Positions 1,372 to 18,031 of a stretch of 27,408 nt of DNA are shown in pieces. The notes below the pieces were generated by a model. The model was not told the origin of the DNA. It searched no databases and saw nothing but the letters and a program-made list of their open reading frames with translations. Source of the stretch: a virus. The stretch covers positions 1 through 27,408 of the IMG/VR virus record IMGVR_UViG_3300036822_000102. The stretch is one strand, 5' to 3'. The translations under genes and the position numbers were made by a program. The number at the start of each line of letters is the position of its first letter. Position 1 is the stretch's first letter.

Positions 1372-2400
1372 TTATGAGAGATGGAATGCTGCTAGCGGAT
1401 TTAGTCTCAGAGTTTCCTCTAAATGGTCTGGCGCGAAATGGGCGTAGCGCATCGTTACCCTGATATCTGAGTGCCCAAGGATTCGCTGCAAGACTATGAT
1501 ATTTCCTCCACCCATCATGAAGTGGCTAGCAAAGGTATGGCGGAGCACATGTGTCATTTGTCCTTCTGGCAAGGTTATATTCGCCAGTCTCAGAACTCGA
1601 TAAAATTGCTTGTAGCAAGGATCAAACTCTTTTTCATCCAGTATTATTAGCTCGTCATATAATTCTTTCAAGATGGGGACAGTTCTGTTTTTCTTCCCTT
1701 TGGTGTTGGTATACGTGATTTTATATTTTGATATCTGCGATGGTCTTAGTTTTGCGGCCTCATTCCATCTGGCGCCAGTTGATAGGCATATCTTTACGAT
1801 AAGTGTTAACTCTGGGTTGCCATGAGTATGGCAGGCGTTTATCAGTGCTTTTATTTTCTCATTATTCAGCCATGCCATTTCCTTTTCTGGCTGATCAAAC
1901 TCTCTGATGTTTTCCAATGGATTTGGCAGTGACCATTCGCCGAGTCGTTTTAATTCGTTAAACACTGCCCGCAAAAAAGCTTGTTCACAGTTAACCGTTC
2001 CCGTGCTGACTTTTCTTGTTTCAAGGCTGGTGCTATACCCGTTATCTATTTCTCCCCTTAGTCGCTGATCACGATAATGAGCCCAGTCTTTTGGGGTGAT
2101 CTCTGAAGCTACAGGGTTCCCCAGGCCGTTACAGATAATGACTAGTTTTCCGAGCCGCCCTTTTTTGTCGTTTAATGAGCAGCCATGCAGCCTGTACCAC
2201 AGATCGATCAACTCGCTAAGCTTTCGTTTGTCTTCCTTATCGCCCAGCCAGGGCTTAGCCTTGGCCTGGTCGAGCTGATAGCTCTCGTAGGCGAGCGCCT
2301 CTCCCTTGGTGGCGAATTGCTTACGGGTACGCTTGCCGCCCCTCCCGTTGTGATAGAACTCGCACAGCCACTTGCCGGTGCTCAATTTTCTTACGGTCAT
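1372..2400 (-). CDS. int: P2-type tyrosine integrase
   Basis: Site-specific recombinase of 342 aa that would catalyse integration and, with an excisionase, excision. The start MTVRKLSTGKW at 2400 is chosen because it aligns with the P2 Int N-terminus (MAIKKLDDGRY). The longer frame to 2460 runs through an inverted repeat. Residues 1-60 form the arm-binding domain and ~70-165 the core-binding SAM-like domain. The catalytic domain shows R211 (STGARWNEA), a lysine in the TKGKKNRTVP hairpin, H284 and R287 (THVLRHTF), H310 (ILGHS) and the nucleophile Y319 (MRYAHFAP), all conserved with P2 Int. The gene reads towards the presumed attL. Unlike in P2, it lies in tandem with ogr on the same strand instead of facing it across attP. 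It appears intact. Confidence 0.95.
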   Translation of the reverse strand: MTVRKLSTGKWLCEFYHNGRGGKRTRKQFATKGEALAYESYQLDQAKAKPWLGDKEDKRKLSELIDLWYRLHGCSLNDKKGRLGKLVIICNGLGNPVASEITPKDWAHYRDQRLRGEIDNGYSTSLETRKVSTGTVNCEQAFLRAVFNELKRLGEWSLPNPLENIREFDQPEKEMAWLNNEKIKALINACHTHGNPELTLIVKICLSTGARWNEAAKLRPSQISKYKITYTNTKGKKNRTVPILKELYDELIILDEKEFDPCYKQFYRVLRLANITLPEGQMTHVLRHTFASHFMMGGGNIIVLQRILGHSDIRVTMRYAHFAPDHLEETLRLNPLAAFHLS

Positions 2401-2427: not shown

Positions 2428-2463
2428 ACATTGAATACTGTATATAATAACAGTATTCAATGT
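2428..2463. promoter_or_regulatory. Perfect 14+14 bp inverted repeat upstream of int
   Basis: The arms ACATTGAATACTGT (2428-2441) and ACAGTATTCAATGT (2450-2463) are exact reverse complements around the 8-base spacer ATATAATA. The spacer region contains -10-like elements on both strands (TATAAT on +, TATTAT on -), 28 bases upstream of the int start codon. This has the form of an operator over the int promoter, bound by a dimeric regulator, or of a cruciform. The regulator is not identifiable from this window. Confidence 0.6.
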
Positions 2464-2491: not shown

Positions 2492-2518
2492 AAAAAAAAC
2501 CGCTGGCGGCGGGTTTAT
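2492..2518 (-). terminator. Intrinsic terminator downstream of ogr
   Basis: On the - strand, a hairpin (AACC-C-GC ... GC-GGTT with one bulged C) ending in eight T residues follows the ogr stop codon directly. It would end the FI-to-ogr late transcript before int and so separate late transcription from integrase expression. Confidence 0.65.
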
Positions 2519-2520
2519 GG

Positions 2521-2739
2521 TTAGAAGTGCAGGGCGGTTTGGCCAGACTTTGATGGGTGCGGTGGCGCTGGGTCAACCTGGCCGGGCTTAACAATGGAGC
2601 GAACAAAAGTTTCCATCGTGATAAAGACATGACTGCAATTTACGTTTGTGCATTGGTTGTAACGCTCTTTTGTCGTTGCTGTCACTTCGTTACTACTGCG
2701 GGTGTGCGCCGCATGGCCGCACAAAGGGCATCGCATCAT
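2521..2739 (-). CDS. ogr: Ogr/Delta late-gene transcription activator
   Basis: Zinc-finger activator of 72 aa that binds upstream of P2 late promoters and contacts the RNA polymerase alpha subunit. Start MMRCPLCGHAAH matches P2 Ogr (MFHCPLCQHAAH), and GAGG lies 8 bases upstream. In-frame upstream codons back to 2796 are not needed. Zinc ligands C4, C7, C30 and C35 form the family pattern C-X2-C-X22-C-X4-C. The C-terminal IVKPGQVDPAPPHP segment is also conserved. It is the last gene of the late tail operon, with a terminator immediately after. Its predicted target sites (TGT-N12-ACA) occur upstream of FI, V and O/P in this window, so activator and sites are both present. Confidence 0.95.
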   Translation of the reverse strand: MMRCPLCGHAAHTRSSNEVTATTKERYNQCTNVNCSHVFITMETFVRSIVKPGQVDPAPPHPSKSGQTALHF

Positions 2740-9401: not shown

Positions 9402-10397
9402 TCATATAGTCAAAGGGTCTGAAATCCATTTTTTATTATGCCCTTCACGATAACAATCATAAATAAGAAGATTTCCTCTACTACCTTGCGGAATTTCAAT
9501 TTCAGGAATGTAATAATTTGCAGGGTCACTATTTTCAAATGAAATTGAGAAATGTTGATTTACAATTGTTGATAGTGTTGTTTTAGACTCTATCAAACTA
9601 AATGGCCCGTATTTTGTGCAATACATCACAATGCATGCAGCTACTGCTTCCATCACGTTTTCCAGAGTTGAAAAATTAAATGCACCAGATCTGTCATGTT
9701 TTGTTTTATTATATGCATCATACCATGTTAATGAGGTGGTTGGATTGGTAACAGACCAACTATCAAATGGTTTAAAATCCCTCAGTCCATGGTAATTCAA
9801 ATACTGTATTTTAAAATCATTTAAAAAACACTTATCCAAAAGTTTAATGTAATCATTAGTGTTGTATCTCCCATTCGATCTAGCTCCATTTGTTTTATTT
9901 ATGATCGACACCCATTGATTTTCCACCTCAGTACATGCGAGAATCAATAGTTCCCTGCATTTATGGCTATATGAATTTAGGCCACTAGAACTAGGTTCAA
10001 TATATAATAAAATATCATCTATTTTTTCAATGAGAACTCGTAGCGCTTGTTCTGATGCGCGCTTTTCAAATTCATCAATACCTAGAGCGACTTCTATATC
10101 GTCCACATTGTAAAGTGATGGTCTCCACACCCCTTGAGTCGCATGCCCGACCTCTTTGTTCAATGGCTGGATATTTTTAGAGCCAAAAACCTTTTGCACC
10201 CAGTCAGTTAAACTTCCATTTTTACTCTCAATTACAGTTAATCCCACTGAAATAATATTGAATCTAACATCACGCCCATAAAAGTGCACAAAATGGCTTG
10301 ATGTTTCGTAAGCATAACCAATTCTCTGATTAATATGGGTTGTGGTTTCAAAGTGAGGAATGCGAGTATGTGTGTTTTCGTACCAAATTCCGTTCAT
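9402..10397 (-). CDS. Accessory protein with HEPN-like motif
   Basis: Predicted protein of 331 aa, not recognised at family level. Residues ~105-170 form a helical region (KRASEQALRVLIEKIDDIL, then SHKCRELLILACTEVENQW). Residues ~224-262 contain WYDAYNKTKHDR followed by a helix (LENVMEAVAACIVMYC). The YNxxKHxR pattern after paired helices resembles HEPN-type abortive-infection proteins, where the His and a nearby polar/basic residue take part in RNA cleavage. The N-terminal ~100 residues and the C-terminal ~60 look like beta-rich additions. There is no signal peptide or membrane segment. The gene is AT-rich and lies in the same orientation as the tail operons, exactly where P2 carries the Z/fun exclusion genes (between the fibre genes and FI). 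It has its own AT-rich upstream region. A toxin or defence role is inferred, not shown. Confidence 0.8.
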   Translation of the reverse strand: MNGIWYENTHTRIPHFETTTHINQRIGYAYETSSHFVHFYGRDVRFNIISVGLTVIESKNGSLTDWVQKVFGSKNIQPLNKEVGHATQGVWRPSLYNVDDIEVALGIDEFEKRASEQALRVLIEKIDDILLYIEPSSSGLNSYSHKCRELLILACTEVENQWVSIINKTNGARSNGRYNTNDYIKLLDKCFLNDFKIQYLNYHGLRDFKPFDSWSVTNPTTSLTWYDAYNKTKHDRSGAFNFSTLENVMEAVAACIVMYCTKYGPFSLIESKTTLSTIVNQHFSISFENSDPANYYIPEIEIPQGSRGNLLIYDCYREGHNKKWISDPLTI

Positions 10398-17115: not shown

Positions 17116-17161
17116 TGGCACAGCTTGCCACCTAACTTTTTGATTAGGCACATCGATGACT

Positions 17162-17179
17162 TGTATGAGCCATGATACA
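17162..17179. promoter_or_regulatory. Ogr-type activator site of late promoter PV
   Basis: TGT-N12-ACA lies inside the perfect inverted repeat TTGTAT-N8-ATACAA, centred 55.5 bases from the V ATG. It matches the Ogr/Delta consensus and the expected PV position. The site overlaps the upstream end of the open frame on the + strand, so the true start of that gene must lie further right. Confidence 0.8.
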
Positions 17180-17212
17180 ATTTTCGTTTTTAAAGTGATG
17201 AAAGGGGAACCT

Positions 17213-18031
17213 GTGGAATCTGAGCAAGTTATTGACGCGTTAAAAAAGTTTAACGACAGACTGGAGAATGAGGTGGCTCCAGCCTATGACGATAAAGGGG
17301 CAGAATTCGGAGATCAGCGTTATGCAGCATTCAAACGTTCTTTTTCAAGGTTTATAAAGGAGGAAATACCTTCTGAAATATCAAACTGTAATAATGTATT
17401 GACACAGCGAATTTACAAAGTACGCATGAGGTATGTGCCGGAGAGTCAATATTTTTGGAGTTGCAATGGAGAGAGAGTTGCCTCCTACATTGATTCTTTG
17501 ATAATTGATATTGAGAATGGTGAGTTTGAGCTAAGAGCTGAACCTGCAGAGCATGAAGAATTGGAAAGCAAACCAGTTGAATCTAAACCATATGATAAAG
17601 TATTTATAGTTCATGGGCATAATGAAGAGGTCAAGCTTAGGACTGCTAGGTTTGTTGAGAAACTAGGATTTACAGCTGTCATTCTTCACGAACAAGCAAG
17701 TCGCGGTAAAACTATAATTGAAAAGATAGAACATTATACAGATGTCAACTTTGCTATTGTTCTTTATACTCCTGATGATCTTGGAAATACAATTGAACAA
17801 GCTAAGGCTGGGGAGTTGAACTCTAGAGCAAGGCAAAATGTCATTTTTGAACATGGATACTTAATGGCTAAAATTGGCAGGGAAAATGTTGTTGCGCTTG
17901 TTAGTGATAGATTAGAGTTACCTAATGATATTAGTGGTGTTGTCTATGTTTCTGATGCAAGTTGGGAGATGGATATTGCAAAAGAAATGAAGTCAACAGG
18001 ATACGATGTGGACTTTAATAAGTTATTCTAA
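17213..18031 (+). CDS. TIR-like (CAP12/PycTIR family) effector protein
   Basis: Predicted protein of 272 aa. The GTG at 17213 is chosen because AAGGGG lies 5 bases upstream and earlier ATGs (17156, 17165, 17198) lack ribosome binding sites or overlap the PV control site. Residues ~1-110 are a helical N-terminal domain. Residues ~128-265 form a TIR-like nucleotide-binding domain of the PF10137 type: KVFIVHGHNEEVKLR (129-143), HEQASRGKTIIEKIE (159-173, with E170 the candidate catalytic Glu), LYTPDDLG, and RARQNVIFEHGYLMAKIG. TIR domains of this family act as NAD+-degrading effectors in CBASS and Pycsar defence. No cyclase gene is adjacent, so here it would act alone or with an unseen sensor. 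It is AT-rich, on the strand opposite the late genes, between V and S where P2 carries orf30. The defence role is inferred. Confidence 0.9.
   Translation: MESEQVIDALKKFNDRLENEVAPAYDDKGAEFGDQRYAAFKRSFSRFIKEEIPSEISNCNNVLTQRIYKVRMRYVPESQYFWSCNGERVASYIDSLIIDIENGEFELRAEPAEHEELESKPVESKPYDKVFIVHGHNEEVKLRTARFVEKLGFTAVILHEQASRGKTIIEKIEHYTDVNFAIVLYTPDDLGNTIEQAKAGELNSRARQNVIFEHGYLMAKIGRENVVALVSDRLELPNDISGVVYVSDASWEMDIAKEMKSTGYDVDFNKLF

Follow-up and report, generated by a model that had tools for sequence, protein, structure and literature searches.

A predicted LexA operator in the integrase promoter of a clade of P2-like prophages

The integrase gene of a P2-like prophage lies behind a long perfect palindrome, which raises the question of what regulator, if any, this site serves. 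The prophage is contained, except for its right end, in the window, by which we mean the whole stretch of DNA analyzed here (27,408 nucleotides, positions 1 to 27,408 of IMG/VR virus record IMGVR_UViG_3300036822_000102). An original prediction took the palindrome as the site of a dedicated, possibly new regulator of integrase or as a cruciform or recombination-related structure. Its sequence, its fate among relatives, and the placement of int point instead to the host SOS repressor, LexA.

Results

The repeat holds a predicted LexA box within the int promoter

The features of the int promoter region are the following:

1372–2400, minus strand: int, tyrosine integrase gene with start ATG 2400 (Pfam PF24624 and PF00589; phrog_1 integrase; protein tree)
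2428–2463, no strand: perfect 14+14 bp inverted repeat (pairing check of the arms and shuffles)
2432–2437, minus strand: predicted weak int –10, TATTCA (inferred from sequence; TAAAAT in many Rahnella relatives)
2436–2455, no strand: predicted LexA/SOS box, TACTGTATATAATAACAGTA (CTGT-N8-ACAG core, conservation, and host sites)
2455–2460, minus strand: predicted int –35, TTGAAT (from sequence; TTGAAT or TTTACA kept here in relatives)

The two arms (2428–2441 and 2450–2463) are complementary at 14 of 14 positions (100%) and lie 8 nt apart, as originally described. Among 300 dinucleotide shuffles of the window, 3 contained perfectly paired 14-bp arms no more than 60 nt apart; taken alone, the repeat is unusual at about the 1% level, for which "far beyond chance" is somewhat overstated. 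The sequence of the repeat is far more telling. We defined an E. coli-type LexA operator by a CTG-N10-CAG core, usually CTGT-N8-ACAG, with an AT-rich center, and the repeat contains a CTGT-N8-ACAG core, CTGTATATAATAACAG, at 2438–2453, the sole such site in the window. The core of TACTGTATATAATAACAGTA is three mismatches from TACTGTATATATATACAGTA, a match equaled in 0 of 100 shuffles. By a simple count of mismatches to the LexA consensus, the window box (3) falls between the boxes of recA (4) and umuD (2). The "–10-like sequences on both strands" noted in the spacer are the AT-rich center of this box, and the site is, as was also noted, unlike the P2 C and Cox sites, being a single palindrome at int, whereas those comprise short boxes lying, within the immunity region, between repressor and cox/apl.

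On the minus strand, which is the int strand, TTGAAT (2460–2455) is followed by a 17-nt spacer with the LexA box and then by TATTCA (2437–2432). The E. coli recA promoter shares this layout (TTGATA-CTGTATGAGCATACAG-TATAAT). The window box stands 53 bp ahead of the int ATG and overlaps the predicted promoter of the gene it would control, between –35 and –10, in agreement with the expectation of an operator over the int promoter. The likely int –10 lies outside the spacer of the repeat, in the other arm. This element is weak, with 3 of 6 consensus positions, and a consensus promoter scan returned nothing above its thresholds at int; our promoter call is based on the recA-like layout together with conservation. 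Because an E. coli-type LexA box sits between the int –35 and –10 in the layout of recA, the regulator is most likely host LexA and not a new phage regulator. The int gene looks intact as a tyrosine integrase. A longer reading frame from TTG 2460 crosses the palindrome; TTG 2460 is an unlikely start.

The hosts use sites of the same kind. In Buttiauxella and Serratia genomes that carry relatives of the window prophage, TACTGT-N8-ACAGTA occurs at five or six sites per genome; the motif is found at recA/umuDC, and the sites include recA, umuD-type genes, yebG, and Tum-type or Tum-like small phage genes. In the Buttiauxella genome the int box itself is among these few. The int box seen most often in the clade described below reads, on the other strand, TACTGTATATAAAAACAGTA; this sequence forms the umuD operator in both E. 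coli and Serratia. Thus int resembles E. coli recA and umuDC in having such a box over its promoter, although those are host repair genes. One further TACTGT-N8-ACAGTA site in a Serratia genome (L142, 1501–1520) precedes a gene resembling a secreted non-specific nuclease.

The box is conserved in one integrase clade, and the full arms are not

We fetched 128 loci with related int genes, of which 119 were usable; with the window added, this made 120 rows. CTG-N10-CAG lies 46 to 54 bp upstream of the int start in 83 of the 120, all of them among the 96 members of one int clade; none of the 24 more distant relatives has it. In a tree of 107 int proteins, this clade is well supported and comprises 82 distinct rows, window included, with Serratia, Rahnella, Buttiauxella, Pectobacterium, and others as hosts. 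The tree was built by a quick method and does not itself separate gain from loss; one gain of the box followed by several losses is the simplest reading. Since 13 clade members are without it, the box is not indispensable. They comprise one sub-lineage (L079, L081, L084–L087, L089, and L090), a locus with one extra base (L123), and four with deletion or decay (L001, L080, L009, and L093). In L001 (9880–10001), a Serratia proteamaculans remnant, the deletion fuses tail gene W to a point about 17 bp before int and takes the box with it. Many Rahnella copies have CTGG in place of CTGT, variants to which LexA may bind more weakly.

Across 60 distinct 60-base stretches, information per column was 1.72 bits in the box, 0.97 on the –35 side, and 0.65 on the –10 side (the downstream flank), where CTG and CAG were a requirement for inclusion in the alignment; conservation also extends to the AT-rich N10 and the flanking TA, on which inclusion did not depend. 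It does not extend to the outer right arm (TTCAATGT), and perfect 14-bp arms are present in only 2 of the 60 distinct sequences. We therefore read the long perfect repeat as the sum of a LexA box and a –35 hexamer mirrored by chance in this lineage. Conservation upstream of int, on which the original prediction had staked itself, thus divides: the core is kept and the full arms are not. The exact arms, put forward as grounds for a cruciform or dedicated palindrome, are a lineage-specific extension, and the conserved unit, CTG-N10-CAG, is of the type of host LexA sites (recA, umuDC, yebG) where a dedicated or new regulator had been proposed. The int promoter region had no counterpart at the DNA level in the E. 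coli genomes; in phage records the nearest int was 62% identical, and a deposited phage of the int clade was not found.

These data bear on three other readings. The palindrome could serve a phage regulator, whether CI, Apl/Cox, or a new protein, as its operator, or be a dedicated extended site that needs its full arms, as might be supposed from arms that are perfect in the window phage and longer than a LexA box, and from an outer AAACATT motif conserved on the –35 side. The –35 element largely accounts for that outer left part, however, and the outer right arm is the unconserved one, with perfect arms as rare as stated. Moreover, the cI–apl interval of the relatives, where the phage repressor would act, has no CTGT-N8-ACAG site, which argues that the int box is not that repressor's operator. 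We consider this reading very improbable. We give as little credence to the idea that the box is a relic, inherited as a LexA site but no longer in practical control of int: its loss from the L079–L090 sub-lineage, where int is still there, and the frequency of CTGG variants would fit, but the box is kept in 83 of 96 members while their int proteins have diverged to about 71% identity and the flank has diverged as well. Least probable of all is that the repeat acts as a DNA structure (a cruciform or recombination-related site), since, although AT-rich arms that pair perfectly around a short loop could in principle extrude, the att core lies elsewhere (101–125) and the symmetry stops at or near the LexA box in most relatives.

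int stands apart from cI, between ogr and the attachment site

The features on either side of int are the following:

101–125, no strand: att core, AAAAAAAGACCGAATACGATTCC (given for the minus strand), at the 3′ end of sdsR/ryeB (Rfam RF00111 at 27–125)
2492–2512, minus strand: terminator-like hairpin and T run in the ogr–int gap (by folding; weak here, –5.4 kcal/mol)
2521–2739, minus strand: ogr/delta-type late activator gene (PF04606, E 7e-20), directly upstream of int and the same neighbor in the clade

Wherever the contig could be read, clade members have ogr, or a cargo gene adjoining ogr, upstream of int; outside the clade the gene upstream is a repressor or cargo gene that ends near int. 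Most of the relatives that were folded have a hairpin terminator between ogr and int, with hairpins stronger than that of the window. Of 29 records, 26 have a single cI gene with a CI C-terminal domain, located at the prophage end opposite int. In the relatives, therefore, with int 3′ of ogr and cI at the other end, the two genes are not placed for co-transcription, and the clade int has left the cI–int operon of 186 and Fels-2 for a position alone between ogr and att. From this gene order and the terminator usually found between ogr and int, int appears to rely on a promoter of its own. In a close relative (L129, 1583–2437) the CI repressor has two CI helix-turn-helix stretches (PF07022) followed by the CI C-terminal domain.

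In most members of the int clade the att core lies about 120 bp past int; in 3 of 5 prophages compared it is a direct repeat with its second copy at the cI end; no tRNA att site was found. The sdsR/ryeB sRNA gene is antisense to sraC/ryeA (Rfam), and positions 1–129 of the window, the left end of the prophage, fall within this sRNA pair (RF00111 and RF00101). The sdsR/ryeB site serves most of the int clade and also PhiW104, which attaches in the last bases of sdsR/ryeB, a known phage attachment site (PMC7380047). In the window, about 1.2 kb separates int from the att core and carries a pentapeptide-repeat protein gene (387–1247), cargo whose product has a membrane-like N-terminus; in most relatives this gap has no room for a gene.

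A second LexA-type box precedes a Tum-type gene in relatives

Because the window ends short of the Tum region, the data on a second box come from relatives only. Most complete relatives have exactly two CTGT-N8-ACAG sites, one of them at int, and in nearly all complete relatives the second lies about 25 kb from the first, downstream of replication gene A and ahead of an ORF of about 60 aa. This ORF belongs to phrog_1993 (E 4e-18), which also matches residues 1–61 of 186 Tum (E 1e-22). The gene, a homolog of the half of 186 Tum that carries the antirepressor function and termed Tum-N here, is present in the records of 27 of 29 relatives, with a LexA-type box directly before it in all 27 and an exact CTGT-N8-ACAG in 23. 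In phage 186, Tum is a LexA-controlled antirepressor of CI whose second half is DinI-like, and in PSP3 the antirepressor activity resides in a separate upstream gene (PMC3121763; PMC7708051). Two loci, L081 and L084 (records G015 and G017), have lost the int box and kept the LexA-type box before Tum-N, an apparent natural uncoupling of int from SOS.

Discussion

We consider it highly probable that the repeat is a LexA operator in the int promoter and that DNA damage would derepress int and a Tum-type antirepressor together, so that the prophage excises. The box and its position in the promoter, its conservation in the clade, the second box in relatives, and the relocation of int are read from sequence, and from these we infer LexA binding, derepression on damage, and the effect on excision. 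As long as the lysogen is undamaged, LexA of the host would occupy the int box and keep int off. Damage would activate RecA and lead LexA to cleave itself, allowing int expression, while LexA would simultaneously come off the second box, which in complete relatives lies about 25 kb distant, and release the antirepressor; with boxes at both int and Tum-N, SOS would switch on both genes. Tum-N would then inactivate CI and open the early promoter and genes, probably including that for the excisionase, and the joint presence of integrase and excisionase would excise the prophage.

If the LexA-controlled promoter is the only one that int has, integration as well as excision would be gated by SOS, and efficient integration on infection would be confined to cells with the SOS response switched on, with the phage's own rolling-circle replication as one conceivable trigger. 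The terminator usually following ogr, and cI transcription that converges beyond att, are the basis for a sole promoter. We regard this extension as possible but rather unlikely.

The SOS operon of 186 and Fels-2 (p95-tum) is the closest known system: these are likewise P2-like prophages with a CTGT-N8-ACAG LexA box, a Tum-N homolog, and the same CI family. In 186, the only match to the pattern in the 15.6-kb stretch searched is the annotated p95 LexA site, and in Fels-2 the one match is at the SOS operon. In both, however, int lacks a LexA box and comes immediately after cI in the lysogenic operon, whereas in the clade int stands alone beside ogr with a box of its own. Transcription towards int from the cI operon of 186 drops after UV induction (PMC7708051), which implies that 186 expresses int with the repressor and not with induction; the clade arrangement would thus reverse the logic of 186.

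Integron integrase genes (intI) are also under LexA control, with an E. coli-like LexA box overlapping the promoter (PMC3108266, PMC3948777). The window int is similarly a tyrosine recombinase gene with such a box over its promoter, but it encodes a phage integrase for one att site. It is not itself an integron integrase, scoring 62 bits against TIGR02249 where the cut-off is 265. LexA sites, LexA-controlled antirepressors (186 Tum and N15 AntC), and LexA-controlled integron integrases are already known. A literature search of incomplete coverage turned up no P2-like int described as under a LexA box of its own, which is weak evidence of absence. The clade would represent a classic lysogeny circuit rewired in nature: int has moved, and it and the antirepressor would both answer to the host damage signal, in parallel with LexA control of integron integrases. 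The states of the box within the clade (intact, CTGG, with one base added, or lost) offer built-in comparisons that make the value of an SOS-timed integrase directly testable, and the inducibility of many unstudied prophages could be predicted.

Other cargo in the window

Two further genes lie among or beside the tail genes. A CAP12/Pycsar-type TIR domain gene (17156–18031; PF10137; PADLOC candidate PDC-S35) runs opposite to the tail genes around it and is probably anti-phage defense cargo. At 9402–10397, beside tail genes, lies a gene for a 331-aa protein (phrog_19461, E 4e-187) without an assigned function, probably also cargo.
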